Shown here: piece by piece, positions 1,565 through 41,562 of the stretch
How positions within the stretch are numbered: the stretch's first letter is position 1
How the letters are laid out: each line of letters starts with the position of its first letter
Assembly: GCA_944321765.1 (NCBI GenBank)
Contig: CALUMQ010000037.1
Span: forward strand, 1-51,820
Reading direction: 5' to 3'
Origin: an uncultured Alistipes sp.
GTDB lineage: Bacteria; Bacteroidota; Bacteroidia; Bacteroidales; Rikenellaceae
DNA length: 51,820 bases
Made by a program: the position numbers and the translations under genes
Notes under the pieces: model-generated
Told to the model about the DNA's origin: nothing
Databases searched by the model: none
What the model saw: only the letters and a program-made list of their open reading frames with translations

Positions 1565-3262
1565 CTACTCCTCCAGCCATCCGTCGACATCCCGGGCCTG
1601 GACTGCCGTGCGGCATCCTTCGATCCGGTTGTTGCGCAACCGGACATTGCGCGCATTCCGCACAACAATGCCGCACTCATTCTCCAAGGTTCCCCGGATG
1701 GTGTTGTCCTCGATCCGGATCCCGTCGTGCAGCAACGTATGCTCCGTATCGGGAGCTCCGATCACCACGGCAATGCCCGAAGCTCCATATTGGCACCCCG
1801 CGCCCAGGCCGCAGGCAACAATCACATTGCGTGCAACGATCACATCCCGGCCGTGAGAGCCCTCCTTCCAGTCCGATTCCGCACCCACATGAATCGCCGT
1901 GCCGGTGCATCCGCGAAAGATATTGTCCTCGATGCACACGCCGCGGGTCTTGGACAGCACTCCCCGTGCCAGGTTGCCCCAAACGACCGATCGGCGAAAC
2001 TCCAGACGCGGAAGTTTTGTAACATTGAACAGGCAGTAGTCTTCAAAATTCTCCGGCAGCGCACCCTGCACACGAACCCTCACATCGAGCGACCCCTCCC
2101 GATGAAAGACCTCCGTCACCTCAACCTCTCCTTCGGGAATGAGCGTCGACGTACGCACGATCTCCATGCGGTCTCCCACACGCGGGACATCGGGAATCTG
2201 GGCATGGGTGAAGGTCGGAGCATTCAACACCAGGGTCACGGTATCCCCTTTGACTGCCGCCATATCGTGATAATAGCCATGCACGTTGGTGGCATCATCT
2301 CCCTGACCGCGGAACAGACACCCGTCGAAGGAGACCGTTCCCTCGCAGCAGGCGAAATGCGTAGCATCCGTGTTGGTCGAGAAGCCATATCCGTCGGCCG
2401 GGACGACCGACAGCCGAAGAATCGACACATCGCGGCTGTCAAACCCTACGATGCCCATGCCGGGCTGCGAATGGATCGTGACGCCCTCGAGCCGTGTTCG
2501 CTCACTGCGCAGAATCAGAATCGCCGGCCGGAAATGAAACGAATGAGGGGCGGCAACGGCAGCTCCCGCCATACGCTCCGGCAGATGTCCTTTGAAACGT
2601 ACCAGGTTATCGCCCAGAAGCGTTCGCTCGGGAAAATAGAACGGATCGCGGTATATGCCACCAATCGCATCGTCCCACAACATCAGACGCGGAAAAGGCA
2701 TCGCCGCCGTAATCGTGCGTTCCGGACGGAACCGTACGGTGAACGACTCCTCGTCGACCTGCGTCACGACGCCCTCGGAGAAGGGTTTGCGCAGATAATC
2801 GATCGTCAGCCCCCGCAGGGTGAAATCCCGGCAATCGGCCAACGTGACCGGCTCCATCCACCCCTCGCACAGCAGCACGGCACCCCGGGCTTCGACGGTG
2901 ATGTCCTCGGAACCGGAGAAGTCGAGACCGCTCACATAGGGGTAATAGGGTTTGAAGATTACCGACTCGGGATTCTCGCCCATCTTTCCACAAAGCACCT
3001 CCTCCTCGAGACGTTCGGCTTCGGCATCCCGCAAACGGTAGACGCCCGCCGGGATCACAAGTGTCGTCCCGGCATGCGTGCGACAATACTCGGCAGCGCG
3101 GCGCAGGGCGCGGGTATCATCCTTTCCGTCATCGGGCCGCGCGCCAAAATCCGTTACCGACACAACATGCCCCGCAGGGAAGTCTGCACGAATGGCAGCC
3201 AACGACGTCTCCGCGAAGATCAGAGTCGCCGCACCAAAGACCCATTTGAATAGATTTGTCAT
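1565..3262 (-). CDS. Secreted right-handed beta-helix protein, probably GH110 alpha-galactosidase
   Basis: The 565-residue product has a signal peptide (about 1-23). It then has a pectate-lyase-3 type start (VSVTDFGARPDDGKDDT, about 34-50) and repeated beta-helix coils such as GVCIEDNIFRGCTGTAIHVG. The motifs NTDATHF (Asp299) and GQGDDATNVHG (Asp322-Asp323) place three acidic residues 23-24 apart. From memory this matches the catalytic aspartates of GH110 exo-alpha-1,3-galactosidases, which remove terminal alpha-galactose such as that of blood group B. The family assignment rests on motif recall, not a search; another polysaccharide-active beta-helix hydrolase is possible. The gene follows the C25 operon on the same strand, but a strong terminator (3361-3395) separates them, so it is probably its own unit. 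No clear -7 box was found upstream. Confidence 0.68.
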   Translation of the reverse strand: MTNLFKWVFGAATLIFAETSLAAIRADFPAGHVVSVTDFGARPDDGKDDTRALRRAAEYCRTHAGTTLVIPAGVYRLRDAEAERLEEEVLCGKMGENPESVIFKPYYPYVSGLDFSGSEDITVEARGAVLLCEGWMEPVTLADCRDFTLRGLTIDYLRKPFSEGVVTQVDEESFTVRFRPERTITAAMPFPRLMLWDDAIGGIYRDPFYFPERTLLGDNLVRFKGHLPERMAGAAVAAPHSFHFRPAILILRSERTRLEGVTIHSQPGMGIVGFDSRDVSILRLSVVPADGYGFSTNTDATHFACCEGTVSFDGCLFRGQGDDATNVHGYYHDMAAVKGDTVTLVLNAPTFTHAQIPDVPRVGDRMEIVRTSTLIPEGEVEVTEVFHREGSLDVRVRVQGALPENFEDYCLFNVTKLPRLEFRRSVVWGNLARGVLSKTRGVCIEDNIFRGCTGTAIHVGAESDWKEGSHGRDVIVARNVIVACGLGAGCQYGASGIAVVIGAPDTEHTLLHDGIRIEDNTIRGTLENECGIVVRNARNVRLRNNRIEGCRTAVQARDVDGWLEE

Positions 3263-3360
3263 ACTGAATTGAGATGTAATGTAAAATTATAAAATTTCTA
3301 CCAAAACGTGGAGAATCCGCTGAAGAGTTTTACTCCGGGCCGATTGAAGTCACCCGGCGA

Positions 3361-3395
3361 AAAGAAGCGCAGCCCTTTTTGGGGCTGCGCTTCTC
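3361..3395 (-). terminator. Intrinsic terminator of the C25 peptidase operon
   Basis: A perfect 13-bp stem (3364-3376 with 3383-3395) has a six-base loop. Reading on the minus strand, a short T run follows. It lies 23 bases beyond the stop of the last C25 peptidase gene and ends the unit that starts at the TonB receptor. Confidence 0.88.
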
Positions 3396-3417: not shown

Positions 3418-5607
3418 TCAATAACTCTTCAGACGGTTCTGCGTCTTCAGAGCCTCTTTCCGAAGCGCTTCGGGCTGATCGGAGGAGAGGATCCGGGAAC
3501 ACATCGCCTCGATGGCCGGGCGCTGCCACGAAATCGTGAACCAGCCCAGCGCCTCGACAGCCGCAACCCGCAGTTCGGGATCGAACGAAGGATCCTCGGC
3601 CAGAGCTATCAAGCGCGGAACCTCGTCGTGATGCGGATAGTTGCGGAAATAGTTGATCTCGCTCTTGCGGCGTGAGAACTTCTTCGTCGTATCGACAATG
3701 TAGGCAAACGTCTCCTCAAGGCGGGATTCCACCGCCCCGGCCCGACGCAACAGCACGGCAAGACGCTTGTCACCCTCATAGAGGTAGGGTTTCGCCGCAA
3801 AGCCCGCCTTCAGGGCTGCCGAGAGTTTCTCGGAATTGAAGAAACTCAGCGAGTTCTCCAGCTGGAAACGCACGCGCGCCGACAGATCGTCGTCGGTAAG
3901 CGCCTCCACGGCAATCGGAATCAGTCGCTCGTCACCGCAATCGCCCATCAGCATCGCCGCCATACGGCGAACCAGTTCATAGGAGTCGTTCGAGGCCATG
4001 CGCAGCGCCTCGATAAAGCGCGGGTCGTGCTTGCTCGAGAGCAGCGTCAGCGCCTCCAGGCGGACGCTTCCGTAGGGAGAGTTGCTAAGCCGGTCGTAAA
4101 GCAGGTCGCAGATCGCCGGATAGCCGTTCTCGCTCAGGCGCCGCAGCGCAATGGCCTCGACATCGGCCGGCATGTCGTGATCGACCAGACGCAGCCAGAA
4201 CCTGTTGTCCGCACGTCGCGTCGTGAGAGCCGCACCGAGGTCCAGCGACGGCAGCGCACGGTTCACGAACCGATAGGTCGGATCGCCGATCAGATGCGTC
4301 TCGAGGTAGTGCGTGTGGCAGGCCCACTGTCCGACGCGCACCCCGCAGTCGAGCAGCCCGATATAGCGGTCGGGCCACTTGTCCTGAAGGGCATTGACCG
4401 TATTGCCCTGGGTCACGACCGTCTGGCCCGGGCTGAAGATGTAGCTCGTAGCAATGCAGTCGTCCTCGTAGAAGGATCCGTTGAAGCAGGCGTCGAACAT
4501 CACGAAGCGCGGATTCAGTGCACGGTCGTAGAGATCCTCGACATGAATGTCCATCATGTGGTTGAAGATCGAATCGGCGACAAGCAGCGAATCGTTGACC
4601 TCGCACCACGCCTCCGGAACACCGTACTGCTCGACGAAATACTTCGTTCGCTCCGCGGGGTTCTTGTGCCCGGCGATCTTGCTGCGCAGGAAGAGACGGA
4701 TATTCTCGATCGACGTATTGATGTCCGAACCGTTGCGATAGCCCGTGATGTACTGCATGGTCGGAGCCCCGTGGTGGTGGCACAGCGCCACGTCGACATC
4801 GGGCTGCTCCATCTTCTCCAGCAGGTAGGGCTTCATCGGCCAGCGGCTTTGGAAGTCGTAGAAACGTACCTTGTTTCCCGGAGCAAAGAGTCCCGGCAAC
4901 TGCTCGCGCAGCGATATCTGCTCGCCCGACCACGCTTCGAGAGCCTCGGAGTTGTAGCCGTGGCCGCGGAAGACGAAAAGGTTGTCCAGGGCATTCGCCT
5001 CGCGGTGCGCTGAAACGACCTTGCGCAGGTAAGCACGAAGCAGTTCATCGGAATCGACGCCTTCACGCTTCGGAGGGCGGATGCGTGCCGAATAGATTGG
5101 CGAAGCGATGTACTGCGGCGACTCGGGCGCAAGCGAATAGTAGAAGAAAAGCGGGTTCTTCTCGTCCCGGCGCAGGAATTCGAACTGCAGCGCCGGATCG
5201 TCGTAATAGCGGTCCGAGGGAACCGATGAAGAGCTCCACTCCCCGCGGTCCTGGCTCGCCTTGAACGCCGACGTGAGATGCTGTGCATCGCGGATCATCG
5301 GGATGGGAATCTCCCCGATGAATACCACTCCTTCGAGCGGCGCACGGTCGGCAATCATCCGGACGATCTCGGCCCGAATGGGTTCGGGAGAGGCCCACTC
5401 GTCAACCAACAGATAGGTCCCCAACCCCTCCGATTCAAGAACGGCCCGGTAGTCATCGATCTCCTGCGCCGCCGCGGCATAGCTGCGGCTGTCGACAAAG
5501 ATGGCAAAGGTCGTGGGACTCTTTACCCCCGGGCAGGTGATGCGCGGAGCGGCTTCCGCCAACCACGGAAGAAGCACCGCCAACAATAAGATGCTGAATC
5601 TCTTCAT
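3418..5607 (-). CDS. C25 (gingipain-type) cysteine peptidase with HEAT-like repeats, copy A
   Basis: The 729-residue protein begins with a signal peptide (about 1-19, ending AEA) without a lipobox. The central domain has the clan CD arrangement: a hydrophobic strand before His279-Gly280 (CHHHGAP), and VMFDACFNGSF with Cys374, close to the FDVAC-VNGDF block I recall for gingipain R. HLIGDPTYRF (about 438-447) is another C25-type motif. About 90 residues separate His and Cys, more than in gingipains, so there is an insertion. From about 490 to the end are HEAT/ARM-like helical repeats. No type IX secretion C-terminal domain is visible, so a periplasmic location is more likely than surface display. 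The start is one base from the stop of copy B, indicating translational coupling. Substrate specificity cannot be read from the sequence. Confidence 0.8.
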   Translation of the reverse strand: MKRFSILLLAVLLPWLAEAAPRITCPGVKSPTTFAIFVDSRSYAAAAQEIDDYRAVLESEGLGTYLLVDEWASPEPIRAEIVRMIADRAPLEGVVFIGEIPIPMIRDAQHLTSAFKASQDRGEWSSSSVPSDRYYDDPALQFEFLRRDEKNPLFFYYSLAPESPQYIASPIYSARIRPPKREGVDSDELLRAYLRKVVSAHREANALDNLFVFRGHGYNSEALEAWSGEQISLREQLPGLFAPGNKVRFYDFQSRWPMKPYLLEKMEQPDVDVALCHHHGAPTMQYITGYRNGSDINTSIENIRLFLRSKIAGHKNPAERTKYFVEQYGVPEAWCEVNDSLLVADSIFNHMMDIHVEDLYDRALNPRFVMFDACFNGSFYEDDCIATSYIFSPGQTVVTQGNTVNALQDKWPDRYIGLLDCGVRVGQWACHTHYLETHLIGDPTYRFVNRALPSLDLGAALTTRRADNRFWLRLVDHDMPADVEAIALRRLSENGYPAICDLLYDRLSNSPYGSVRLEALTLLSSKHDPRFIEALRMASNDSYELVRRMAAMLMGDCGDERLIPIAVEALTDDDLSARVRFQLENSLSFFNSEKLSAALKAGFAAKPYLYEGDKRLAVLLRRAGAVESRLEETFAYIVDTTKKFSRRKSEINYFRNYPHHDEVPRLIALAEDPSFDPELRVAAVEALGWFTISWQRPAIEAMCSRILSSDQPEALRKEALKTQNRLKSY

Positions 5608-5608
5608 A

Positions 5609-7861
5609 TCACTTGTTTTGGTTTGTGGTGTTCGGAACGGAAACGGTGCTTTCGAGGCGCAGCGCCGTCTGCATCAGTTCGCCCTTCAGCGACGGTTCAG
5701 CGGTCTCGCCGGCCAGTCGGCGGCACGTGTCGATGATCTCGGCGCGCCGGGGCGTATGCACAAACCATCCGAGGCATTCGGCCACGTTGACTCGCAGTTC
5801 GAGAGGTTCCGACGGCGTGGCAAGGAGCTGCAGCAGTTCCGGAACGTACTCATGATAGGTATTGTTGCGCATGGAGCGCACGGCCGAGATCCGTGCGGCG
5901 AGCGTCTTTCCGCTGCGCAGCTGCTGCAGGTCGCGATCCTTCATCCGGAAATCCCGGCCGAGGGATTCGCGGAGCTGTGTCAGCACGGAATCGCGGTCCG
6001 CCACCGTCGAGGCGGCAACAACCGCCTGCAGCACCGAATCGGCCGACGCCTCGGGCGAGAGCTGGAGCCCCTTCCGGGCGATGTAGCAGACACGCTGCGA
6101 CTCGTCGTCGTCGACAAGCGTCTTCACCAACGCGGGCAGCAGCGCCGGACGTCCCAACTGCCAGGCATAGGTGGCCGCATTGCGGCGCAGCAGCTCGTAG
6201 CGGTCGCCCAATCCCAGCAGAACGCCCTGCTCGAAGGCATCCTCGTCACCGAAGCGTCCGAGCAGCTTGAGCGCCTCCATGCGCGTGGTGGCGCACGGCT
6301 CTCCGCGCATCACCGCCAGCAGCGCATCGGGAGTCATTGCCCCCATATCGGTGAGCATGCGCAGCGAAAGGCTCTTCAGATCGGCATAGGGCGTGCTGTC
6401 GAGCAGCGCCTGCCAGTAGGCGGCGTCACGGCGGTGCAGGGTCATGGCCTGCGAGACGTCGTTCGTCTCCACCGGACGGAAGCAGAATGCCGGGTCGCCC
6501 AGGATATGTCCCTCGAGCGTGGCGATCAGCCGGTTGTACTGCCCCACGCGAACGCCGTGCGAAAGCAGCCCCACCATCTCGTAGGTCCATCGGTCCTGCA
6601 GCACATTGACCGTATTGCCCTGCGCGGCGGCCGTCCGGCCCGGACCGAAGAGGTAGTATCCCGAGATGTTGCCCGGCTTGTGGAACGACCCGTTGTAGCA
6701 GGCGTTGAACATCACGAAGCGCGGCTGGACGGGAAGATCCGTCAGATCCTCCAGCTCGATGTCGCGCGGAAGCGTCCCCTCGGGTTCCGAGGCTGCGGAC
6801 TCCTCGCGCTCCAGCGCCTCGAAGAAGGCATCCGTAAGGTGGTACTCCTTCTTGAAGGACTCCCGGAGTCCCTCCAGGTCGGCCTTCTCGCCCTTGCGTT
6901 TCTCCATGAACTCGGCCCAGCCATAGGCCCCGCGGAGCTGCTCGTACATGGCATCAAACGTATCGGGTTCGGGCGTATAGGAGCCGACGTGCTGGGCATC
7001 GGGCGATCCGTGTTCGTTGAAGAGGATGGCATCCACCTCCGGGCGCTCCAGTTCGTCGAAGAGGCGGTATTTCATGTAGGGATCCATCCGGAAGTTCAGC
7101 TGGCGCAGGCGGGCCGCCTCACGCGTATTGGTAAGCGGGAAGTTCTCGTCCATGGCGATGCGCTCGTCCATCCAGCAGATCAGGCAGTCGGAGTTGTAGC
7201 CGTCCCCGGCATAGGTCACCACGTGGTCCAGCTGATCGACCCGCTGCCGCTCGGCAACGACCTTCTCCAGATAACGGGCAATGCCCGCATACTTGTCGCC
7301 TCCCAGCTGCTCGGGGTAACGGATACGTCCCGAATAGAACGCCGGATCGAGACGCTGCGGAGAGGTCGTGGAGAGGTTGTAGTAGAACCACAACCGGTCG
7401 ACCGTGTCCTGCGCCACGCGCTCGAACTCCAGATCCGGACAGTCATAATAGCGGTCCGAAGCCACCGACGACTCGTTCATCGGGAACTTGATCTCGTCCA
7501 TCTTGAAGGCCGTGGTCATGTGCTGGGCGTTGCGCACCAGCACGATCGGAATGTCCCCGACAAAGACGGCGCCCTCGAGCGGAGCCCGCCTGGAGGTTTT
7601 GCGCATCAGTCCGTACAGCTCCGCACGAACCTCCTCGGGCGTCTGCCAGTCGTCGCAGAGAATGTAGGCCGCCAGTCCGTCGGCCTCCAGCGCATCGCGG
7701 TAGGCGCGCAGCTGCGGCAGGGTTTTCTCATAGGTCGTGCGGTCCACGACAATCGCAAAGGAGGTCGGATGCCGCTGCTGAGGCTTCTCGACAAGCGGCT
7801 TCGCCCCAACGAAGCCCGGCAGCAGCAGTGCTGCAAGAATGAGGTATTTGAGTGTTTTCAT
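5609..7861 (-). CDS. C25 (gingipain-type) cysteine peptidase with HEAT-like repeats, copy B
   Basis: This 750-residue paralogue sits in the middle of three tandem copies. It has a signal peptide (about 1-20), the proposed catalytic His284-Gly285 (FNEHGSP), Cys388 (VMFNACYNGSF), and HILGDPAF as the C25-type GDP motif. Aligned landmarks shared with its neighbours include SDRYYD and FYSGRIRYP. A second upstream HG seen in copies A (RGHGYNS) and C (TGHGSYS) is DG here (AGDGYNS), so that earlier His is unlikely to be the catalytic one. The His-Cys insertion is longest here and is rich in charged residues (about 300-375). The C-terminal third is helical-repeat like. Only six bases separate it from copy C and one from copy A. 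Confidence 0.79.
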   Translation of the reverse strand: MKTLKYLILAALLLPGFVGAKPLVEKPQQRHPTSFAIVVDRTTYEKTLPQLRAYRDALEADGLAAYILCDDWQTPEEVRAELYGLMRKTSRRAPLEGAVFVGDIPIVLVRNAQHMTTAFKMDEIKFPMNESSVASDRYYDCPDLEFERVAQDTVDRLWFYYNLSTTSPQRLDPAFYSGRIRYPEQLGGDKYAGIARYLEKVVAERQRVDQLDHVVTYAGDGYNSDCLICWMDERIAMDENFPLTNTREAARLRQLNFRMDPYMKYRLFDELERPEVDAILFNEHGSPDAQHVGSYTPEPDTFDAMYEQLRGAYGWAEFMEKRKGEKADLEGLRESFKKEYHLTDAFFEALEREESAASEPEGTLPRDIELEDLTDLPVQPRFVMFNACYNGSFHKPGNISGYYLFGPGRTAAAQGNTVNVLQDRWTYEMVGLLSHGVRVGQYNRLIATLEGHILGDPAFCFRPVETNDVSQAMTLHRRDAAYWQALLDSTPYADLKSLSLRMLTDMGAMTPDALLAVMRGEPCATTRMEALKLLGRFGDEDAFEQGVLLGLGDRYELLRRNAATYAWQLGRPALLPALVKTLVDDDESQRVCYIARKGLQLSPEASADSVLQAVVAASTVADRDSVLTQLRESLGRDFRMKDRDLQQLRSGKTLAARISAVRSMRNNTYHEYVPELLQLLATPSEPLELRVNVAECLGWFVHTPRRAEIIDTCRRLAGETAEPSLKGELMQTALRLESTVSVPNTTNQNK

Positions 7862-7867: not shown

Positions 7868-10060
7868 TTATTTTTTCGATTTCAACCGGTTGACCATGCG
7901 CACGAGCTCCTTGCGGAAAGTCGGCGAAAGATCCTCCTGCGACAGCAGCTCGCGGCCCGCGCGGGCAATCTGCTCCTTGTGCACCGAGAGGTTGAACCAC
8001 GCCAGCGACTCGGCAAGGCGCGTACGCAGCGTCTCGGACTGGGTCGCGTCGTTGAGCAGCGCGAGCAGTTCGTCGGTCATCTGGTTGTAGGGACGGTTCT
8101 TCAGGAACGAGATGCTCATGAGTTTCATGCGCTCCGAGGTCTTCGGATCGCGCAGTTCGGCAAGCGTCTCCTCGGCCTGCGACAGTCCATCGGCATTCTC
8201 GATCTTCCGCAGCAGCTCCTGCTTCAGCGAATCGGCGTGGAAGTAGTGCTTGTCGGCGAAATAGCTTTCGATGGCCTGCTTCGTCTTCACGCGGTCGAAG
8301 CACTGGATCGACTCGCCGATGTTGAACACGATGCGTGCGGCGTTGCGGTCCTGGGCATAGACGTCGATCAGGATGGGAATGAACCGCTCATCCCCGACAC
8401 GCCCCATACGGGTGACGGCCACCCGGCGCAGGAACTCGAACCGGTCGTAGGCCGCCAGGCACAACGCCTCGCGGTAGACCTCTCCGCCAAGCGACTCCAG
8501 CAGCCGGAAGGCGTTGTAACGCACGACGGCATAGGGCGACTGCTTCATCTTGTCGAGCAAAAGATCAGACAGGTCCGGGCAATCGCTCTCCCAGAGGCGG
8601 ATCATGGCGAGATTCTGCACGTCGGGAATCTCGTGGTTCAGCTGTGCGAGCCAGAACTCCGCGTCGCGGTTCGCCGCCATGGCGTTGATATCCAGTCCGG
8701 GATGTGCGGCGACAAAGCGATAGGTCGGGTCACCGATGACGTGCGACTCCAGGATGTGGATGTTCTGCGCCCAGGCGCCGATCCGGAGCCCTTCGCCAAG
8801 CAGCCCCAGCAGGTCGAAGGCCGATTTGTCCTGAAGCACGTTCACGCTGTTGGCAAAGGTCGTCACGCAGCGTCCGTCGGAGAAGATGTAGTGTCCGGCG
8901 ATGAAGTTGTCCTCGCGGTAGTCGCCGTTGTAGCAGGCGTCGAAGATCACGAAGCGCGCATTGGGGGCAATGGCGGGAATCTCCTCAAGAATGATTCCCG
9001 TCCGGAGATCGGCCAGCGAATCCATACGCAGCTGTCCGGCGGTGTCGGGAGCGCAGTACCACGTCGAGTCAAGCCCCAGTTCGGCGGCCTGACGCAGCGC
9101 CGAGGAGCGGCTCGAGGCCGAACGGCGCGCACGCTCGCGCAGCATGAAGCCCATCTCGAAGCAGGCATCCTCCGGTGTGGAGACATACGGCGTGCCGGAG
9201 AGGTACTGCCGGTCGGCCAGGCCGTGCTCGTGGAAGACCATCATGTCGAGATCGTCGCGCCGCACCTCGCGGATCACCGTGCTCTTCATGAAGGGCTGCA
9301 TCGAGTAGCGCAGGAACTTGGCGCCCTGCGCATGGCGGAACGTATCGCCGAACTGTTCGTCGAGCAGCATCTGCTCGTCACGCCACGCCACCAGCGAGTT
9401 GGAGTAGGAGCCGTGGCCCGTGTAGGAGACGAAGCGGTCGAAGCGGGTGGCCGCGCGGTGTTCGCGGACAGCCTTCTCCAGATAGCGCGCGATCTGCGCG
9501 TAGGGGTCACCGAAAGCCTTCTGCGCCTTGATGCGCCCCGAATAGATGTCGCAGCTGATGTACTGCGGCGAATCGGGAGCCAGTTCGTAATAGTGGAACA
9601 GCCCGCGCGCCGGAGCTCCCTGAGGGATGAACTTCAGGTCGAAATCGTCGTAGAAGCGGTCCGAGGGAACGGAGACTTCGTGAATGTCGTATTCATACTC
9701 GTTCATCTTGAAGGCCGAAGTAAGGTGCTGCGCCTTGGTAATCATGGCGATCGGAATGTCGCCCACAAAGACACATCCTTCGAGTCCCCGGCGGGCGTGA
9801 AGATCGACGAGGACTTCGCGGACCTCCTCGGGAGCGCTCCAGCGGTCCGAGACCACAAAGACGGGCAGACCCTCCTCCTCAAGAACCTTCCGGTAGGCAT
9901 CGACCTGCGGCCGACAGCGCTCCAGCGTGACATCGTCGATCACAACGGCGAACGTCCGCGGCCCCTCAATGGTCGGGGCTTCGATCGTCTGCGAACGGCC
10001 CGGCACAGCGAGCAGCAGCAGGACAACCGTCCCCCAAAAACGATTTAGCGATTTGTGCAT
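7868..10060 (-). CDS. C25 (gingipain-type) cysteine peptidase with HEAT-like repeats, copy C
   Basis: The first of the three tandem C25 paralogues in transcription order is 730 residues long if it starts at the ATG at 10060 (MHKSLNRFWG), where a signal peptide begins. The open frame continues upstream to a TTG at 10144, but that extension has no signal-peptide character. Proposed catalytic residues are His279 (FHEHGLAD) and Cys376 (VIFDACYNGDY), the latter block very close to gingipain. HVIGDPTYRF follows, then HEAT-like repeats to the C terminus. A 100-base gap without a recognisable promoter separates it from the DUF6850 gene, so it is probably read from the TonB-receptor promoter. No type IX sorting domain is present. 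Confidence 0.8.
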   Translation of the reverse strand: MHKSLNRFWGTVVLLLLAVPGRSQTIEAPTIEGPRTFAVVIDDVTLERCRPQVDAYRKVLEEEGLPVFVVSDRWSAPEEVREVLVDLHARRGLEGCVFVGDIPIAMITKAQHLTSAFKMNEYEYDIHEVSVPSDRFYDDFDLKFIPQGAPARGLFHYYELAPDSPQYISCDIYSGRIKAQKAFGDPYAQIARYLEKAVREHRAATRFDRFVSYTGHGSYSNSLVAWRDEQMLLDEQFGDTFRHAQGAKFLRYSMQPFMKSTVIREVRRDDLDMMVFHEHGLADRQYLSGTPYVSTPEDACFEMGFMLRERARRSASSRSSALRQAAELGLDSTWYCAPDTAGQLRMDSLADLRTGIILEEIPAIAPNARFVIFDACYNGDYREDNFIAGHYIFSDGRCVTTFANSVNVLQDKSAFDLLGLLGEGLRIGAWAQNIHILESHVIGDPTYRFVAAHPGLDINAMAANRDAEFWLAQLNHEIPDVQNLAMIRLWESDCPDLSDLLLDKMKQSPYAVVRYNAFRLLESLGGEVYREALCLAAYDRFEFLRRVAVTRMGRVGDERFIPILIDVYAQDRNAARIVFNIGESIQCFDRVKTKQAIESYFADKHYFHADSLKQELLRKIENADGLSQAEETLAELRDPKTSERMKLMSISFLKNRPYNQMTDELLALLNDATQSETLRTRLAESLAWFNLSVHKEQIARAGRELLSQEDLSPTFRKELVRMVNRLKSKK

Positions 10061-15990: not shown

Positions 15991-16361
15991 AAGCGGAATG
16001 TTTTGGGTTAAACAAATATTCATTTACACATCTTGAGGAGTCGTTCTGCGATTCGGCCGAACTCCGGTGCGGCAGGGCTGCACCCGCAAAACGACGGCGC
16101 AAGATAAGAAGATCTCTACGGAAAAGAACCGGCTCAGCATCAATTTACCTACTTCTGGGTATCGGGCGCGGGTTCTCGGTTCCACGAGCGATATACCCTT
16201 GACGAAGCTCTTGTTGCATACCGACAACAAGCGATGTTTTGCATCCTAAAAACTTCCTGTTGCTTACGAAAAGCAATTCGTTTTATAACAAACCGTAATC
16301 AACAGAGCCTTACGAAAGATCTGAAACCTCCTTGAGAACGGCTGTTTGACGGATGAATGCT
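15991..16361 (-). promoter_or_regulatory. Structured leader of the TonB-receptor operon
   Basis: If transcription starts just after the -7 box at 16368-16375, the receptor message has a leader of about 370 bases. It contains at least four stem-loops: TTGCTT/AAGCAA (16260-16265 with 16271-16276), GATG/CATC (16233-16236 with 16242-16245), CTTGTTG/CAACAAG (16210-16216 with 16225-16231), and GGGTAT/ATACCC (16157-16162 with 16193-16198) enclosing a CTCG/CGAG hairpin. I see no cobalamin, TPP or other riboswitch consensus. A regulatory RNA is possible but unproven. Confidence 0.4.
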
Positions 16362-16367: not shown

Positions 16368-16396
16368 CAAATATAGTAAATTTTTCTATGTTGCAA
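16368..16396 (-). promoter_or_regulatory. Promoter of the TonB-receptor/DUF4876/DUF6850/C25 unit
   Basis: On the minus strand TATATTTG (16375-16368) fits TAnnTTTG, and TTG (16396-16394) stands 18 bases upstream, close to the usual -33/-7 spacing. The surrounding 16360-16490 is the most AT-rich part of this intergenic region. Confidence 0.65.
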
Positions 16397-16620: not shown

Positions 16621-16655
16621 AAAAAATCCGAAGAGAGTCTCCTCTCTTCGGATTT
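16621..16655 (-). terminator. Intrinsic terminator of the GH29-GH38-C2 unit
   Basis: A perfect 14-bp stem (16624-16637 with 16642-16655) has a four-base loop and, on the minus strand, six T residues. It follows the stop of the calpain-like gene by 28 bases and separates that unit from the TonB-receptor promoter. Confidence 0.9.
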
Positions 16656-23391: not shown

Positions 23392-23421
23392 CAAACTCTT
23401 CATCATGTTCAAATGTTCGGA

Positions 23422-23453
23422 CAAATATAACTATATTTTTTTAATAATACCAA
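23422..23453 (-). promoter_or_regulatory. Promoter of the GH29-GH38-C2 unit
   Basis: On the minus strand TATATTTG (23429-23422) fits TAnnTTTG, and TTG at 23453-23451 lies 21 bases upstream. The expected RNA start is about 20-30 bases before the candidate ATGs at 23391-23406. Confidence 0.6.
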
Positions 23454-34001: not shown

Positions 34002-37000
34002 CTATCGCTCCGGTTCCGGCCCGCCGTTGTGCAGGTTCCGATAGTCACTGGGGGTCATGCCATAACGGGCGGTGAACTCCCGATAGAAATAGGAGCGACT
34101 CGTAATGCCGATCTCCGCAATTACCTCCTTGATGGGCAGGTTGCCGAGCAGAAGCAGCGCCGCCTTCTCCAGACGGTAATTCTTGATGAACTCCGCCGGG
34201 GAGTAGTCCGACACCTCCTTGAACTTCCGGTAGAACTGCCGAGAACTCATGGCCAGGCGGTCGGCGATGAACGAAGAGCCCAGGTTCTCCCGGTCGATGT
34301 TGTCCTCGATAATGGCGACCATCTTGCGGATAAACTCCACCTGCTCGCTGGTCGTACAGGAGAGCATGTTCGCCACGGGCTCCGGAAGCCCCTCTACCCG
34401 CACCTGTCTGATTCCCGTACGGCCATAGATCGCATGGTGAAGAATCTCCCCGAGATAAACAATATCGTAAGGCAGCATCACAAAGGCATCGGCGCGCAGA
34501 ATCAACTCCCGACGTACGGCCGAGAAGCCCCGCCACGGCAGCAACAGCACGAAAGCCACCTTCGCCAACAATCCTCCGTTGCGATTGACAAACTCCAGGA
34601 AGGTCTCCTCCGACTCGGAGTAGATCATCAGATCGACGAGAAATACCGCCGGGGATCCGCTCTGCATGTACTCGACGGCCTGCTGGATGCTGCGCACCTG
34701 ATAAACGACATATTCGTTGCAAAGCATGTCGTCAAGCAGCCAGTACATGTCGTCATGATCCTCGAGCAGCAGCACGATCTTACGATCCGCCGAGGGGACA
34801 GGACGGGACTCCTCGGCCGGTCGGAACGACAGGGTCAACACGCCATCCTCCTCCGAGAAGGTCACAAGAGGATCAACCTGGACCATCAATACCCGGACCT
34901 GCCGATGCAGAAAGTCCAGCACGACATCGCCCGACGACTCGTCTGCGGACACATCGTTCTCGGTAAGACGCTCGCGGAGGTGCCTCAACAGCGTCCGGGA
35001 AGAACGGAACGTGACGTTCATCCGCCCCTCCGACTCCGAGACCGACATCACGAAACGCCGCGGACCTGCCGCATAGAGGTAGATATAACTGAAGAAGAGT
35101 TTGAGCGCGTTCTTGTAGACCGGAAAGGCAAACCCTTCGGGAATCTGCGTCTCGATGTTGCCCAACTCGGGGCTTTGCCGCATGGCAAAGCGCATGGCTT
35201 CGTCACTGAGTTCCTTGATATTGGCACGGCCGTACACGGAGTATCGCTTCAGATCGGGCATATACGGCAACTCCTTCTCTCCGGGATGAGCCCCGGTCAT
35301 CAGCAGCGACATGACGGTCTCCTGAATGGTATCGGCAGCAGATCCGCGCCCGCCGGGATCCGCCGGAATCCGGCCACTGGCCCGGTAGATCGCCGTCAGG
35401 CCCGCGGCCACGGTGCGGTTGCCGCCTGGCGGCAGCGCTCCCGACGTCTTTCCGCTCTCGAGGCGCAGCAGTTCGTCGATCACGCGCTTGTGCCGCGCGG
35501 CTCCGCGCAGCAGCACGAAGAGGAAGAGGCACACTGCGATTGTCAGCAGGACAAAAAGCATCCGCACCCAGGTCCTCTGATACCATAACGGAAGAATCCG
35601 CAGCGGGACTGCGAGGCTCTTGGCCTGGGAATCGAAGACATCCTTGCGATAGCGCACATGGAAGACGTACTCCCCGGGAGGAATGTCCGAGTAGGTGGCC
35701 TTGTGAAGTGCCCGGAACGGCGACCACTTCTTGTCATACCCCTCGAGCATCCAGGAGTACTCGACATCCGATCCGGAGATGAAGTCCGGGACCACGAACG
35801 ACAACGTGAAATCGTGATCCGGAGACCTGAACCGCAGTCCCCGCACCGGATCATAGTAATCGCAAAGGCTCTCCTGCCGGTTACCGAACGCAAGCCCCCG
35901 CAGCAGAATATCGGGATAATAACCCGTATTCTCCGAGCCCCATTTGTCGAGATAGAGGAGTCCGTCCATGCCGCCGAAGAAGAGTCGTCCCGTATAGGGA
36001 CATTCGTAATAGGCGTCGTCGCTGAACTCGCCGATCTGTACGCCTCCGCTGTAATAGAACGAATGGAACGAATCGTCGCGGGGATTGTACTTGACAAGTC
36101 CCTTGTTGGTGCTCAGCCAGAAGAATCCGTCGGCATCTTCGAGAATGCCGTGGATCATGTCGTTGATGAGCCCCTGTTCCCGGCCCAGGTAGTGGGGCTC
36201 GATCTTTCGGCCCTCGAAGTGCAGGCGCACCAGACCGGCCGAGGTTCCCACCAGCAGATCACCGTCCCGGGCCCAGCGCAGGCACAGCACATCGTCCACC
36301 GGGCGTCCGGTCAGTTCACGCAGCGAGTGGATCCAGTAATTGCCGGTCGTCAGGTCGAAGCGCACGAGACCCCGGTCGCGGCTTCCCAGCCAAAGAACCG
36401 AGTCGCCCTGGTTGACCATCGAATAGAAGGTCGAAAGCTCCTGCTGTTCGTGGAAAAAACGGTAACGACGAACGTTGTGAGCCACGATGTCTTCACCCGA
36501 TTTTTGCAGAATCAGCCGATAAAAACCCTCCCGCGTCGCAACGTACAGCGTCGTATCATTGGGTTCGTAGACCTGGTGCACCTCTTCGAGATGCCGGTTT
36601 TCGGGCAGATCCACATGGCGCAGGCGTGTATCCCCAAAGCGGTAATAGAAGAGTCCCGCGGGGCCCGAGCCTACCCAGAATCCATCCATGAAACGGCTCG
36701 CCCGGAGTGAATAGACCGGGAACTCGATGTCGTCGCGCGAATACGAATTCACGGATTGCTGCTTCGCGGGGAAGAAGACATCCGCCTTCTCGGCGCTCAC
36801 CCCCTCGGCATAATCGCGGATGCGGACCAGTCCGTCGCCCTTCGTCCCGAACCAAAGCGAGCCGTCGCGGTCGGTCAGAATCGACCGCACCTGCCGCGTG
36901 AAGTTCTGCGAGAGATCCCGCGTCATGAGATTCGTCGCAATGGAGTGGCGTTTGGTATACATCATGGCACCCTTGCCGTCGACACCGATCCACAGAATCC

Positions 37001-38069
37001 CCTGCTCCGAGTCCTTGTAGAGGCAGAAGATGCGCAGATTGCGATCGATGATCTCCTCGCGGTAGGATTCGATGGCCCGGAGCTGCATCAGTCCGTTGGT
37101 GCGGAAGGCGATCATCAAATCGTCGTAGAAGGGGACGATACCCACGATGGGACCGTATTTGGCCACCAGCGACGAGAGGTTGCGGATATAGACCTTCGTC
37201 TGTCGCCACACGTCATATATGTAGAGGTCCTTGTTCGAGTCGATGAAGCAGAAGGACTTGTCATCCTGACAGAAGAGCGTCTCGACACGAAGGGGATGGA
37301 ATTCGCTGGTCGAGAGGCCCGCCATGGTATCGGTCGAGGCGTCGTCAAAGGAGGCTACCGAAATGCGGCACACCTCGCCCGTCCGCGTGGAGTCGGGAAA
37401 GAGCCACAGCTCGCCCGACCCGGTGACGAACGAACGGTGACCCGGATCGCTCACCCTCACGGGAAGATCCTCGATACGGACGAACCGCTCCAGCGTCGGG
37501 TTGTAATAGGAGATGCTGTCGGGAGCCACGAGCCAGGTTGCACCATTCGAGTTCGAACACAGATACGTTCCGGAAGTTATCGGGTAATTGGCCTCCACGC
37601 ACCGGTGCTCCCGCGAAAAACGGTTCACGCCGCTCTGGGTGGTAATCCAGAGACAATTGCCGTCGGCGCGGCTGATTCCGAAAATCACGTTGTTGTCCAG
37701 CGTTTGCGGCTCGGAGAAGTCCGAACGGAAAACCTCCATCTCCTCGCCGTCGAAGCAGTTCACTCCGTCGTAGGTCCCGAACCACATCAGCTCGTCCTGA
37801 TCCTTGTAGATGCAGATCACCGAACTGTGCGACAGACTCTGCTGATGGCCGATCTCACTAAATATATAGGTGTTATTGTCATCCTCCGGCGAGGCATGCA
37901 GGGGGGGGGAAATGACGAGGCACAGCGCAGCAACGACAAAGTATACGATCCACTTCCTACCGAAAGATGTCGTGGGGCCACAATACGTCGGGCGAGAATC
38001 GGGATTCGATTCCGCTCCGTTTCGCCAGGTATCGTCAAATTCGTTGGGGACGACGTCTTGCCCCGGCAT
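34002..38069 (-). CDS. HTCS-type regulator: beta-propeller sensor, Y_Y_Y domain, degenerate kinase and receiver, AraC DNA-binding domain
   Basis: Counted from the ATG at 38069 the protein has 1355 residues. It has an N-terminal signal anchor (about 37-59), two-component-regulator propeller repeats (about 65-730), a Y_Y_Y domain (VEYSWMLEGYDKKWSPF, GEYVFHVRYR), a membrane segment (about 830-852), a kinase-like region (about 860-1085), a receiver-like region (about 1093-1210) and an AraC-type HTH at the C terminus. The kinase region lacks an SHELRTP H-box and the N and G boxes. The receiver keeps Asp in FLVDLMI, but the usual Ser/Thr and Lys positions read LLPW and MLPYD. The open frame extends to 38690, across the GH2 promoter and start, so that extension is not real. 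A nine-base C tract lies at codons 54-57. It probably controls the adjacent susCD unit and the divergent GH2 gene. Confidence 0.85.
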   Translation of the reverse strand: MPGQDVVPNEFDDTWRNGAESNPDSRPTYCGPTTSFGRKWIVYFVVAALCLVISPPLHASPEDDNNTYIFSEIGHQQSLSHSSVICIYKDQDELMWFGTYDGVNCFDGEEMEVFRSDFSEPQTLDNNVIFGISRADGNCLWITTQSGVNRFSREHRCVEANYPITSGTYLCSNSNGATWLVAPDSISYYNPTLERFVRIEDLPVRVSDPGHRSFVTGSGELWLFPDSTRTGEVCRISVASFDDASTDTMAGLSTSEFHPLRVETLFCQDDKSFCFIDSNKDLYIYDVWRQTKVYIRNLSSLVAKYGPIVGIVPFYDDLMIAFRTNGLMQLRAIESYREEIIDRNLRIFCLYKDSEQGILWIGVDGKGAMMYTKRHSIATNLMTRDLSQNFTRQVRSILTDRDGSLWFGTKGDGLVRIRDYAEGVSAEKADVFFPAKQQSVNSYSRDDIEFPVYSLRASRFMDGFWVGSGPAGLFYYRFGDTRLRHVDLPENRHLEEVHQVYEPNDTTLYVATREGFYRLILQKSGEDIVAHNVRRYRFFHEQQELSTFYSMVNQGDSVLWLGSRDRGLVRFDLTTGNYWIHSLRELTGRPVDDVLCLRWARDGDLLVGTSAGLVRLHFEGRKIEPHYLGREQGLINDMIHGILEDADGFFWLSTNKGLVKYNPRDDSFHSFYYSGGVQIGEFSDDAYYECPYTGRLFFGGMDGLLYLDKWGSENTGYYPDILLRGLAFGNRQESLCDYYDPVRGLRFRSPDHDFTLSFVVPDFISGSDVEYSWMLEGYDKKWSPFRALHKATYSDIPPGEYVFHVRYRKDVFDSQAKSLAVPLRILPLWYQRTWVRMLFVLLTIAVCLFLFVLLRGAARHKRVIDELLRLESGKTSGALPPGGNRTVAAGLTAIYRASGRIPADPGGRGSAADTIQETVMSLLMTGAHPGEKELPYMPDLKRYSVYGRANIKELSDEAMRFAMRQSPELGNIETQIPEGFAFPVYKNALKLFFSYIYLYAAGPRRFVMSVSESEGRMNVTFRSSRTLLRHLRERLTENDVSADESSGDVVLDFLHRQVRVLMVQVDPLVTFSEEDGVLTLSFRPAEESRPVPSADRKIVLLLEDHDDMYWLLDDMLCNEYVVYQVRSIQQAVEYMQSGSPAVFLVDLMIYSESEETFLEFVNRNGGLLAKVAFVLLLPWRGFSAVRRELILRADAFVMLPYDIVYLGEILHHAIYGRTGIRQVRVEGLPEPVANMLSCTTSEQVEFIRKMVAIIEDNIDRENLGSSFIADRLAMSSRQFYRKFKEVSDYSPAEFIKNYRLEKAALLLLGNLPIKEVIAEIGITSRSYFYREFTARYGMTPSDYRNLHNGGPEPER
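37901..37909 (-). repeat. In-frame C9 homopolymer tract at the end of the regulator signal anchor
   Basis: Nine G on the + strand read as TCC CCC CCC C in the regulator (Ser-Pro-Pro-Leu), at the end of the hydrophobic N-terminal segment. The present length keeps the signal segment in frame with the propeller; one base more or fewer would truncate the protein. Confidence 0.9.
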
Positions 38070-38338
38070 CCGCCCGAGGCTACAGGTCCACGCCGACACG
38101 TGTACAAATTTATTTCCCCCCATGAATGGATTCATCGACGATAAAAATACATCTTTTTTGTCATTCGGCAAATGATTTCCCCGAGATTTTATCCACATCG
38201 AGCCCTTCCATAGGGTCTGATCTGTCAAAAGTGAAACAAAAAAAGTCATTTGAGAACAGCTCTCCGAACAACGGGCCGATCCTCGCCGGAACCTCCGACA
38301 GGAACCAGAAAGGAGGCAAAAAGCAGCTTTTCGACCGT
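38070..38338. other. Divergent intergenic region between the regulator and GH2
   Basis: The space between the regulator ATG and the GH2 ATG is 379 bases in all and carries both divergent promoters. No gene is seen. Between about 38140 and 38330 there is AT-rich sequence without a clear repeat or operator that I could identify by eye. Confidence 0.5.
38105..38112 (-). promoter_or_regulatory. Candidate regulator promoter, -7 element TAAATTTG
   Basis: TAAATTTG on the minus strand fits TAnnTTTG and stands 35 bases before the ATG at 38069, which supports that start over the ATGs at 38123 and 38135. No good -33 TTG is seen. Confidence 0.4.
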
Positions 38339-38373
38339 TTTGTACCGAAAATCCGGGAATTATTTTAACTTTG
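38339..38373 (+). promoter_or_regulatory. GH2 beta-galactosidase promoter
   Basis: TAACTTTG (38366-38373) fits TAnnTTTG; TTTG at 38339-38342 lies 23 bases upstream, a slightly long spacer. The ATG at 38449 follows after about 70 bases. The open frame upstream of that ATG begins inside this element and is therefore not coding. Confidence 0.6.
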
Positions 38374-38448
38374 CATAAAATTGTCTCGGCCGATTTACGA
38401 GGCAATTGCACACGCCAACACCAAAACAACCAAATACCCTGTAGAACT

Positions 38449-41400
38449 ATGAAGAAAATCTTTCTCTGCGGACTGGCCTCGCTCCTCGCCTGGACTGCCG
38501 GTGCGCAATCGAACGAATGGCAGGACGCCACCGTCAATGCGGTCAACCGCATGCCGATGCATGCCTCCTTCTTCGCCTTCGAAACGCCCGAAGCCGCCCT
38601 CGGCGGAGACCGCACCCGCTCGGACCGTTTCCTGACGCTCAACGGATTCTGGAATTTCGACTGGGTTTGCGATGCCGACCAACGGCCCACGGACTTCTAC
38701 CGCACCGACTACAACGACAAAGGCTGGGGCAAGATGCCCGTCCCGGGAATCTGGGAGATGAACGGATACGGAGACCCGATGTACCTCAACGTTGGCTACG
38801 CCTGGAGAGGATGGTACAAGAACAATCCGCCCTATGTACCCGTCAAGCAGAACCACGTGGGATCCTACCGCCGCACGATCGACATTCCCTCCGGCTGGGA
38901 CGGCAAGCAGATCGTCGCACACTTCGGATCCGTCACCTCGAACATCTACCTCTGGGTCAACGGCCGTTATGTGGGTTACAGCGAAGACAGCAAGCTCGAA
39001 GCCGAATTCGACATCACCCCCTACGTGAAGCCCGGCGCCAACCTTATCGCCTTCCAGGTCTTCCGCTGGTGCGACGGATCCTATCTCGAGGACCAGGACT
39101 TCTTCCGTCTCTCGGGCGTCGGCCGTGACTGCTACCTCTATGCCCGCGACAAACGGCAGGTGGAAAACATCCGCGTCAACGCAGCGCCCTCGGCCGACTT
39201 CACCTCCGGAACGGTGACCGTCGAGGCCGCGCTCTCGAAGGCCGCGCGCGGATGCACACTCGACCTGCAGCTGACCGGTCCCGACGGCAAGCAGATCGTG
39301 GCCCAGCAGCAGAAGATCAGCGGGACGACACTCTCCTGTACGCTTGACGCCGGAAAGGTGGCGCTGTGGAGCGCCGAGACCCCCGTGCTCTACACCCTGA
39401 CGGCAACGCTCAAAACCGCAGCCGGACAGGTTATCGAAGTCATTCCGCTGAAAACCGGATTCCGCAGCGTGGAGATCCGCGACGGACAGCTGCTGGTCAA
39501 CGGTCAGCCCGTGCTCATCAAGGGTGCCAACCGTCACGAAATGGATCCCGACTACGGATACTACATCTCCGAAGAGCGCATGCTTCAGGATCTCCGCATC
39601 ATGAAGGAGTACAACCTCAACGCCGTACGTACGTGCCACTACCCCGACAACAACCGCTGGTATGAACTCTGCGACCAGTACGGCATCTACGTCGTTGCCG
39701 AGGCCAACATCGAGTCCCACGGCATGGGATACGGCGAGAAGACCCTTGCGGCAAACCCCATCTACGCCAAGGCTCACATGGAGCGCAACACGCGCAACGT
39801 GATGCGTTCGATCAATCACCCCTCGGTCATCGTGTGGTCGCTGGGCAACGAGGCCGGCGACGGTCCCAACTTCGACGCCTGCTACGACTGGATCAAAAAG
39901 TACGATTCCACGCGTCCGATCCAGCATGAACGTGGCATCGACCGTCAGAACGGCCGCAACACCGACATCGTATGCCCGATGTACTGGCCCTATGATCTGT
40001 GCGAGAAATACCTCGCCGGAAACCCCTCCAAGCCCCTCATTCAGTGCGAGTACGCCCACGCCATGGGCAACTCCATGGGAGGCTTCCGCGAATACTGGGA
40101 TCTGATCCGCCGCGAGCCGAAATATCAGGGCGGATTCATCTGGGACTTCGTCGATCAGTCGCTCCACAAGAAGGGTCGCAACGGCGTCCTGATCTATGGT
40201 TACGGCGGTGACTGGAACCCCTATGATCCCTCGGATCTGAACTTCTGCGACAACGGGCTGATCAGCCCCGACCGCCGTCCCAATCCCCACATGAAGGAGG
40301 TCGGCTACTTCTACCAGTCGATCTGGACCTCGTGGGCCGGCGAGAAGGCCGGAAATACGGTGGACGTGCTGAACGAGAACTTCTTCAAGGATCTCGCGAA
40401 CTACGACCTCCACTGGGAGGTGCTGTGCGACGGAAAGCCCGTCTGCCGCGGCGTCATCAACGACCTGAAGATCGCTCCGCAGCAGCATGCACAGATCGCG
40501 CTGCCCTACGATCCCGCAGCGCTGCCCGCCCGGGGAGAGTTGATGCTCAATGTCGCCTACCGGCTCAAGAACGCCGACGGACTGCTGCCCGCAGGTCACG
40601 TTGCGGCACGCGGCCAGCTCCCGATCCGCGACTATGAGTTCACGGCACCGACGGTGAACACGAATCTCGAGGAGGAGCCGATCACCCTTGCCGACAACCA
40701 CGACAACTTCCTGATCATCGAAGGAAACGGTCTGCATATCGACTTCAACCGTCAGACGGGATTCATTACCCGCTACGAGTTCCGCGGGCAGAACTTCCTG
40801 GCCGACGGAGCGTACATCCGTCCGAACTTCTGGCGCGCCCCGACCGACAACGACTTCGGCGCAGGGCTGCAGAACCGCTATGCCGTCTGGAAGAACCCCA
40901 CGCTGAAGCTCACCTCGCTGACGCATGACGAGGCCGAGGGCATCATAACCGTAAAGGCCTCCTACGACATGCCGGAGGTCAAGGGCAGCATGCAGATCGC
41001 ATACTCGATCGACAACACGGGCGCCATCCTCATCGACCAGACGTTCGACGCCTCGGAAGGGGTCGAGATGCCCGACATGTTCCGCTTCGGCGTGCGCTTC
41101 GCCATGCCCGAGGGCTTCGAGCACCTCCAATACTACGGACGCGGTCCGGGCGAGAACTATGCCGACCGCAAGTGGGCCGACTTCATCGGGCTCTATACGC
41201 AGAGTGTCGACGAGCAGTTCTATCCCTACATCCGTCCGCAGGAGACCGGCACGAAGAGCGATCTGCGCTGGTGGCACCTCGCAGATATCGGCGGCCGCGG
41301 TCTGATGGTCACCTCCGTGGCACCCTTCTCCGCTTCGGCCCTCCATTACTCGCAGGAGTCGCTCGACGAGGGTCCCGTAAAGCGTCAGGGACATTCCCCC

Positions 41401-41562
41401 GAGGTGGAGCGTCAGGACGAGGTTTCGGTATGCATCGACAAGGTTCAGTACGGACTCGGATGCATCGATTCGTGGGGACGGCTTCCGTTGCCCGAATACC
41501 GCGTACCGTATGCCGACTACAACTTCCAGGTGAAGATCGCTCCGGAAAGACACCTCCGGTAA
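38449..41562 (+). CDS. Secreted GH2 beta-galactosidase (LacZ type)
   Basis: The 1037-residue enzyme starts at MKKIFLCGLASLLAWTAGAQ, a signal peptide. The GH2 sugar-binding, immunoglobulin-like and TIM-barrel domains follow. The proposed acid/base is Glu468 in WSLGNEAGDGP and the nucleophile Glu534 in IQCEYAHAMGNS. A C-terminal beta-galactosidase small-chain domain is present (GLHIDFNRQTGFITRYEF, YYGRGPGENYADR). The export signal means it works on periplasmic or surface oligosaccharides, not as a cytoplasmic LacZ. It is divergent from the regulator gene and most likely part of the same glycan locus, exposing residues under terminal galactose. Confidence 0.95.
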   Translation: MKKIFLCGLASLLAWTAGAQSNEWQDATVNAVNRMPMHASFFAFETPEAALGGDRTRSDRFLTLNGFWNFDWVCDADQRPTDFYRTDYNDKGWGKMPVPGIWEMNGYGDPMYLNVGYAWRGWYKNNPPYVPVKQNHVGSYRRTIDIPSGWDGKQIVAHFGSVTSNIYLWVNGRYVGYSEDSKLEAEFDITPYVKPGANLIAFQVFRWCDGSYLEDQDFFRLSGVGRDCYLYARDKRQVENIRVNAAPSADFTSGTVTVEAALSKAARGCTLDLQLTGPDGKQIVAQQQKISGTTLSCTLDAGKVALWSAETPVLYTLTATLKTAAGQVIEVIPLKTGFRSVEIRDGQLLVNGQPVLIKGANRHEMDPDYGYYISEERMLQDLRIMKEYNLNAVRTCHYPDNNRWYELCDQYGIYVVAEANIESHGMGYGEKTLAANPIYAKAHMERNTRNVMRSINHPSVIVWSLGNEAGDGPNFDACYDWIKKYDSTRPIQHERGIDRQNGRNTDIVCPMYWPYDLCEKYLAGNPSKPLIQCEYAHAMGNSMGGFREYWDLIRREPKYQGGFIWDFVDQSLHKKGRNGVLIYGYGGDWNPYDPSDLNFCDNGLISPDRRPNPHMKEVGYFYQSIWTSWAGEKAGNTVDVLNENFFKDLANYDLHWEVLCDGKPVCRGVINDLKIAPQQHAQIALPYDPAALPARGELMLNVAYRLKNADGLLPAGHVAARGQLPIRDYEFTAPTVNTNLEEEPITLADNHDNFLIIEGNGLHIDFNRQTGFITRYEFRGQNFLADGAYIRPNFWRAPTDNDFGAGLQNRYAVWKNPTLKLTSLTHDEAEGIITVKASYDMPEVKGSMQIAYSIDNTGAILIDQTFDASEGVEMPDMFRFGVRFAMPEGFEHLQYYGRGPGENYADRKWADFIGLYTQSVDEQFYPYIRPQETGTKSDLRWWHLADIGGRGLMVTSVAPFSASALHYSQESLDEGPVKRQGHSPEVERQDEVSVCIDKVQYGLGCIDSWGRLPLPEYRVPYADYNFQVKIAPERHLR

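Follow-up and report, generated by a model that had tools for sequence, protein, structure and literature searches.

A mannosidase-bearing glycan locus and a gingipain-fold/HEAT TonB unit, best read as independent neighbours on an Alistipes contig

The window analyzed here is a stretch of 51,820 nucleotides, contig C37 (CALUMQ010000037.1) of a 2.31-Mb assembly from an uncultured Alistipes sp. (GCA_944321765.1; 88.6% complete, 40 contigs). Sixteen genes run from 38.7 down to 1.6 kb, all on the minus strand, and a GH2 gene diverges from them near 38.4 kb. The original prediction treated 1.6–41.6 kb as one region for one task, a super-locus combining glycan utilization with a five-peptidase set. 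Its inventory of sixteen minus-strand genes and the divergent GH2 was borne out by the open reading frames (ORFs) and by Pfam, NCBIfam and PDB sequence searches, and the family assignments agree with the earlier ones except for the gingipain type. Two independent systems very probably stand side by side here: a glycan locus (system A, 16684–41562, probably together with a GH110-like gene) and a unit built around a second TonB receptor (unit B, 3418–16023). The features are as follows.

1565..3262, minus: candidate GH110-like right-handed beta-helix alpha-galactosidase; Pfam PF12708/PF13229; signal peptide by eye
3363..3394, minus: terminator-like hairpin 3' of C25a; 13-bp stem, loop of 6, short T run; by eye
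3418..5607, minus: C25a, gingipain-fold and HEAT protein, position 3
5609..7861, minus: C25b, gingipain-fold and HEAT protein, position 2; HEAT_2, aligned with C25a, H and C kept, same-position clade
7868..10060, minus: C25c, gingipain-fold and HEAT protein, position 1; HEAT_2, aligned with C25a, H and C kept, same-position clade; the ORF reaches 10144 with a TTG start
10161..11798, minus: DUF6850 protein (PF21012), Pfam E 6e-82; presumed outer-membrane barrel
11818..13125, minus: DUF4876 lipoprotein, BT_1938 homologue
13144..16023, minus: SusD-less TonB-dependent receptor; possible start at 15990; Pfam barrel, plug and CarbopepD_reg_2
16368..16396, minus: promoter-like TTG-n-TATATTTG pattern match ahead of the TonB receptor gene
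16624..16655, minus: putative intrinsic terminator 3' of the calpain gene; 14-bp stem
16684..18258, minus: calpain-type (C2) peptidase lipoprotein with F5/8-type domain; PF00648 E 3e-8, calpain-8 E 1e-4
18350..21967, minus: GH38 alpha-mannosidase with F5/8 domain; Ams1-containing structure 7vqo, E 8e-83
22009..23424, minus: GH29 alpha-L-fucosidase with F5/8-type domain; 6gn6, E 1e-41
23484..24263, minus: PF04450 HExxH metallopeptidase lipoprotein; Pfam E 2e-51
24286..26610, minus: GH92 alpha-mannosidase; 6f91, E 2.5e-208
26740..28221, minus: fn3-like lipoprotein, presumed surface glycan-binding protein; N-terminus CEDEID; weak matches
28335..30305, minus: SusD-like lipoprotein; PF07980 E 1e-49
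30329..33484, minus: SusC-like TonB receptor; 94% in genome G066
34002..38690, minus: regulator ORF with Reg_prop, Y_Y_Y, membrane segment and AraC-type helix-turn-helix (HTH); true start inside the ORF
38449..41562, plus: GH2 enzyme of beta-galactosidase type; ORF extends to 38371; five GH2/LacZ Pfam domains

The two systems are found apart in other genomes. In G067, the six genes from the TonB receptor to C25a stand in the same order at 74–87% identity, and the 45.9 kb fetched around them hold no match to the glycosidases or peptidases of system A or to GH110. In G066, the order GH2, regulator, SusC, SusD, lipoprotein, GH92, PF04450, GH29, GH38, calpain is preserved at 66–94% identity, and the calpain gene is followed by an unclassified gene and a GH110-matching stretch, not by the peptidase unit. 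Unit B lies away from the system A genes in G067 and in 12 further genomes of the genus (DUF4876 identity 48–77%), with a peptidase in all but G039, and system A occurs without unit B beside it in G066, G172, G538 and G547 (in the last two, within about 40 kb around the calpain gene). Among 180 genomes of the genus searched at E ≤ 1e-20, a calpain match was found in 4 and a DUF4876 match in 32, the own genome and 13 others of these at 48% identity or more. Both matches share a contig in the own genome alone; G036 (71% complete) has them on different contigs. Conservation data had been named by the original prediction as one possible refutation, and by conservation the peptidase and glycan parts behave as unrelated neighbours in G067, the 12 further genomes, G066, G172, G538, G547 and the 80 named loci described below. 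The integrated super-locus was therefore rejected, as was the five-peptidase set, since the two peptidases of system A and the three proteins of unit B have separate histories.

The window's left flank (467–1467) has its counterpart on the G066 PUL (polysaccharide utilization locus) contig, about 25 kb past the calpain gene, and the stretch thus varies between the two genomes. The G066 region beside the PUL (C38, about 65.3–90 kb; L054) contains an unclassified 557-aa protein, the GH110 remnant and, by eye, large leucine-rich-like repeat lipoproteins; the stretch downstream of this PUL is variable.

Candidate transcription borders lie on both sides of unit B. The hairpin 3' of the calpain stop (16655–16624) has a T run and a predicted stability of −23.9 kcal/mol (z −5.0; 0/200 shuffles as stable), and it is the strongest of the 4 sites in the terminator scan (2.6 in shuffles). 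The hairpin 3' of C25a (3394–3363) has a shorter T run; it was seen by eye and is absent from the automatic scan lists. A promoter-like TTG...TATATTTG at 16396–16368, a pattern match to the consensus, is followed by a leader of about 345 bases. TATATTTG also occurs upstream in G067 and G166, and in an alignment of five 5' leaders little is conserved beyond the two closest relatives. Gene gaps from SusC to calpain and from the TonB receptor to C25a measure 1–129 bp, and the borders of unit B 660 and 155 bp. Transcription would stop at the two hairpins.

A single super-locus that employs all five peptidases to dismantle whole glycoproteins, taking in sugars via SusCD and peptides or a cofactor via the second TonB receptor, consequently appears very unlikely. 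Its genes are contiguous, on one strand and of similar GC content, and the GH110 gene lies beyond the peptidase unit, so that unit B seems embedded in an apparent A gene set; however, the two are apart in the other genomes examined, with a putative terminator and a promoter-like site between them here. The GH110-like protein is a homologue of GH110 structures (phmmer: 7jw4, E 6e-29; 8pvs, E 6e-27). Because a GH110 remnant (64 aa, 73%, matching residues 33–93) lies beside the G066 PUL and no GH110 match lies beside unit B in G067, the gene at 1.6–3.3 kb more likely goes with system A.

The region 16.7–41.6 kb is a Sus-type PUL with mannosidases and two peptidases of its own. SusD (PF07980) and the SusC-like receptor form an adjacent pair 23 bp apart, and GH38, GH92 or GH29 accompany SusCD in varying subsets in G066, G172, G538 and G547. 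The calpain-type and PF04450 peptidases both occur with SusCD and the regulator in these four genomes, of which G066 and G172 belong to the same genus, G538 to another genus of the same family and G547 to another family, giving two families and three genera. GH92, GH38 and GH29 vary in presence between relatives; SusCD and both peptidases are constant. The calpain-type protein keeps the catalytic Q, C, H and N in the window and in all ten aligned ORFs (nine distinct, two being the same gene), and the window copy carries a lipobox and an acidic N-terminus, presumably of the surface-export type. The PF04450 protein keeps HELTH in the window and in 4/4 orthologues; no convincing solved relative emerged from the PDB search (best E 0.031). 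Among 393 genomes sampled from the whole order, 5, own genome included, have a calpain match at E ≤ 1e-30, and the gene is therefore rare. Its homologues in G239 and G451 occur without this PUL, the G451 copy beside a SusCD pair of 30–36% identity, and the G036 gene comes from a contig of only 5.6 kb and has an in-frame stop. A second, more distant calpain-type gene (35–40%) with the same catalytic motifs is present in the own genome (G000:C38:10622-12547; L050) and in G066 (G066:C1:2516-4437; L202); its company on contig C38 is a distant SusCD pair and a regulator only.

Since two conserved peptidases belong to this mannosidase PUL, a glycoprotein target is plausible, as had been proposed for the glycan part. 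Glycoprotein is the natural reading, be its source animal, plant or fungal. System A would then serve mannose-rich glycoproteins: the surface calpain-type lipoprotein and the PF04450 peptidase would cleave the protein, SusCD would take in glycopeptide or glycan, and GH92, GH38, GH29, GH2 and GH110 would strip mannose, fucose and galactose. That the target is a fungal or plant mannoprotein instead of an animal glycoprotein is possible, although it has less than an even chance. GH92 and GH38 enzymes are able to act on alpha-mannan side chains, and the variation of GH38, GH92 and GH29 around a constant core would suit such a target. So would the nine GH92 matches of the own genome (two each on contigs C12, C15 and C24), which mark a bacterium rich in alpha-mannosidases beyond the window. 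Conversely, GH110, GH29 and GH2 suit galactose- or fucose-capped animal glycans, and no GH76 was found in the locus by Pfam scans. GH38 relatives (49–56%) in G002, G039, G045, G053, G067 and G077 lie away from any A-type PUL; in the last five genomes the GH38 relative and the DUF6850 locus are on different contigs.

The regulator (34002–38690) has the Reg_prop sensor, Y_Y_Y, membrane segment and AraC-type HTH of a hybrid two-component system (HTCS) regulator. With HMMER filters on, neither HisKA nor HATPase_c was detected in the whole ORF (E 1e-3) or, at the looser threshold of E 10, in its C-terminal 531 aa, and the receiver domain is degenerate, leaving only a trace. The same scan of a control regulator from the own genome returned HATPase_c (1.8e-16), a receiver and a weak HisKA (3e-4, below the curated cut-off). 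The regulators of G538, G547 and G172 are likewise without detectable kinase domains (receiver E 0.048, 0.22 and 0.00097, respectively), and that of G066 aligns through the same stretch as the window copy; the kinase-less form is conserved in two families. In G172 and G547 the regulator lies in two ORFs, sensor and DNA-binding, split at different points (L068:3338-7385, L199:6983-10922), which may be an assembly error (frameshift) or a real split. No paper on kinase-less HTCS was found in the open-access literature.

The stretch 3.4–16.0 kb is a six-gene unit of a TonB receptor, a DUF4876 lipoprotein, a DUF6850 protein and three gingipain-fold/HEAT proteins. The last three had been called gingipain-type peptidases; the fold was recovered by a fold search with the predicted structure of one of them (C25a), and the Pfam family was not, as PF01364 (C25) matched neither these proteins nor any other in the own genome (G000). 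Pfam and PDB sequence searches with the gingipain domain likewise gave no matches. Profile-profile comparisons of the N-terminal domain were weak, both against C25 (1/79 column shuffles as good) and against C11 (0/79, driven by a DAC motif), and the positive control, C25 against C11, also failed, so that the decision was left to the fold search. H279 is kept in 151/151 and C374 in 149/151 aligned sequences; in the model they follow strands 273–277 and 368–372, respectively, in loops predicted with low confidence. One paralogue of the 151 has Gly for the conserved Cys (L105:5790-7718) and is possibly an inactive copy. The named loci fetched with the peptidase (below) carry one to four such genes each, in three old positional paralogue classes (sequences with at least 30% gaps left out of the position-clade comparison). 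Judging from these sequences, the proteins would be proteolytic. In G067, an ECF-type sigma factor-like gene (by eye; L056:332-1300) lies upstream of the unit B TonB receptor on the opposite strand.

Relatives of the peptidase are widespread. The named loci are the best 80 among 430 relatives retrieved with an alignment of the peptidase, each with up to 10 kb of flank, so that a partner farther out would be missed; the nearest to C25a are Alistipes records, in agreement with the genus, and Ignavibacteria and Chitinophagaceae are also included. The TonB receptor and DUF4876 genes are present in 74/80 of them and DUF6850 in 73/80; in the six loci without a TonB gene (L070, L085, L092, L095, L127, L133) the contig ends just upstream of the first peptidase. 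GH38, GH92, GH29, GH110, calpain and PF04450 gave no match in these 80 loci at the thresholds used; GH2 occurs in 2/80 and SusC in 4/80. As the loci were fetched by the peptidase, they show TonB genes beside the peptidase, not the reverse.

Accounts of how gut and oral Bacteroidota obtain iron and haem usually centre on Hmu and xenosiderophore systems. The DUF4876 protein of the window is 41% identical to BT_1938 (PDB 4q1z) and stands beside a TonB receptor, the arrangement of the BT1933-39 type. BT1933-39 of Bacteroides thetaiotaomicron, whose annotation names HEAT-repeat, DUF4876 and TonB receptor genes, is reported to rise 3.5–7.4-fold in iron depletion and PG1019-22 of Porphyromonas gingivalis to rise strongly (PMC10434189), and where haemin conditions were compared a P. 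gingivalis DUF4876 gene shifts the same way as HmuY (log fold change, −5.42 and −6.11; PMC10470040). By analogy, unit B is probably iron-linked, and the original suggestion of a bound-cofactor route through the second TonB receptor fits this homologue. No paper on BT1939 was found in the open-access literature. Uptake of peptides or protein nitrogen, with oligopeptides released by the gingipain-fold peptidases and imported SusCD-like by the DUF4876 lipoprotein and TonB receptor, is possible, with less than an even chance. The number of peptidases per locus and their positional classes suggest different cleavage specificities and would suit it, as would records spanning Ignavibacteria and Chitinophagaceae; the induction of BT1933-39 and PG1019-22 in iron depletion and the shared direction with HmuY argue against it.

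Several observations weigh against independent neighbours and iron-linked, protease-coupled uptake. GC content passes from system A (0.586) to unit B (0.609) without a sharp break, distant SusC matches (25–31%) are found no farther than about 30 kb from unit B in G067, G086, G089 and G166 (in G067 a SusC/SusD pair, 26–31%, with nothing closer), and four named loci have SusC, as noted. Pfam scans of system A show neither endoglycosidase nor hexosaminidase. The modelled active-site loops 279–293 and 375–378 are poorly predicted. A comparison of the stretches preceding 54 TonB genes, with script-chosen starts, brought out no common word or palindrome beyond A/T-rich words; TAnnTTTG occurs in 28/54. 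The induction of BT1933-39 is only modest, and an IS256 transposase also stands in its row of the published table (PMC10434189). Searched with window proteins, 8/24 DUF6850 loci of the genus have a gingipain/HEAT gene and 16/24 have none. For two of the 16 (L034, L053) the contig ends within about 1 kb of the unit, and the 16 are mostly distant (DUF4876 21–28% where found). G039 (L023), at 46–49% identity, has no such gene within 5.4 kb downstream, and a distant DUF4876/TonB locus of G066 (26–27%; contig C31, L040) is without peptidase; six further close loci (G086, G089, G166, G096, G097, G112) all carry one. Together with the 74 uncut named loci, the 8/24 count indicates that the link runs one way: where the peptidase occurs the TonB genes are expected, but not the reverse. 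The peptidase is an optional part of a wider DUF4876/DUF6850/TonB receptor family.

This optional presence bears on another explanation, in which the gingipain-fold/HEAT proteins, like PorU, serve to mature outer-membrane proteins of the same cell, with the TonB receptor as partner or sensor. PorU, which matures cargo of the type IX secretion system, shares the C25 fold with gingipains, HEAT repeats often hold protein partners, and the receptor, lipoprotein and DUF6850 trio also occurs without peptidase. The idea is nevertheless improbable: the TonB receptor and DUF4876 genes accompany the peptidase in 74/74 uncut loci (best 80 of 430), and the reported response of the homologous locus to iron points to uptake.

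The super-locus is best understood as two neighbours brought together by chance or recently: a glycoprotein-type PUL, which is rare, and a protease-coupled TonB operon, which is widespread and probably iron-linked. Unit B would be a TonB uptake operon in the form that includes peptidases. Its gingipain-fold/HEAT proteins, once secreted, would attack a carrier protein, the lipoprotein of BT_1938 type would catch the freed ligand, which may carry iron or haem, and the TonB receptor would import it with the DUF6850 protein as accessory. A fuller proposal remains tentative, with less than an even chance: unit B would represent a class of protease-coupled TonB uptake systems found throughout the phylum, the branch of a wider receptor family that has peptidases. 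These, in three old position-locked classes, would open the carrier and pass an iron-bearing ligand or tagged peptide directly to the lipoprotein and receptor. System A would be a PUL variant whose constant members are two peptidases instead of the glycosidases, run by a one-protein sensor that would have lost its kinase and is still conserved in two families.

A conserved TonB operon that brings its own gingipain-fold proteins, recorded from Alistipes to Ignavibacteria, would link protein breakdown to nutrient capture outside known pathogens and supplies a defined set of genes for deletion. The constant peptidase pair in system A points to PULs that handle protein together with glycan, and the kinase-less regulator there raises the question of how such sensors signal. 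The unit B operon is the part worth following; no paper on DUF6850, nor one joining HEAT repeat, C25 and TonB-dependent receptor in Bacteroides, was found in the open-access literature. Elsewhere in the window, the right flank is housekeeping-like (VTT, GNAT, ferritin-like, PepSY-like, two-component pair, GT90-like and GAPDH genes). Rfam and a tRNA scan gave no match in the window, and PHROGs none for three flanking proteins.

Among known systems, the high-mannose N-glycan PULs of Bacteroides resemble system A in combining SusCD with mannosidases. System A differs in its two constant peptidases, its GH38, GH29 and GH2 set and its regulator without recognisable kinase, and no endoglycosidase is seen in it by Pfam. 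That regulator and its orthologues are like HTCS in Reg_prop sensor, Y_Y_Y, membrane segment and AraC-type HTH, and unlike them in lacking detectable HisKA/HATPase_c and in the degenerate receiver. Compared with RgpB and Kgp (C25), the gingipain-fold/HEAT proteins are 12–16% identical, have a C-terminal HEAT domain and give no Pfam C25 match; their His and Cys lie 95 residues apart, about 33 in RgpB. PG1019-22 has DUF4876 and TonB receptor genes in common with unit B. BT1933-39 shares the DUF4876 lipoprotein and, by its annotation, HEAT-repeat and TonB receptor genes, the former named in the published table only as 'HEAT repeat domain-containing protein'; unit B, unlike BT1933-39, has three peptidase paralogues in tandem and stands beside an unrelated PUL.

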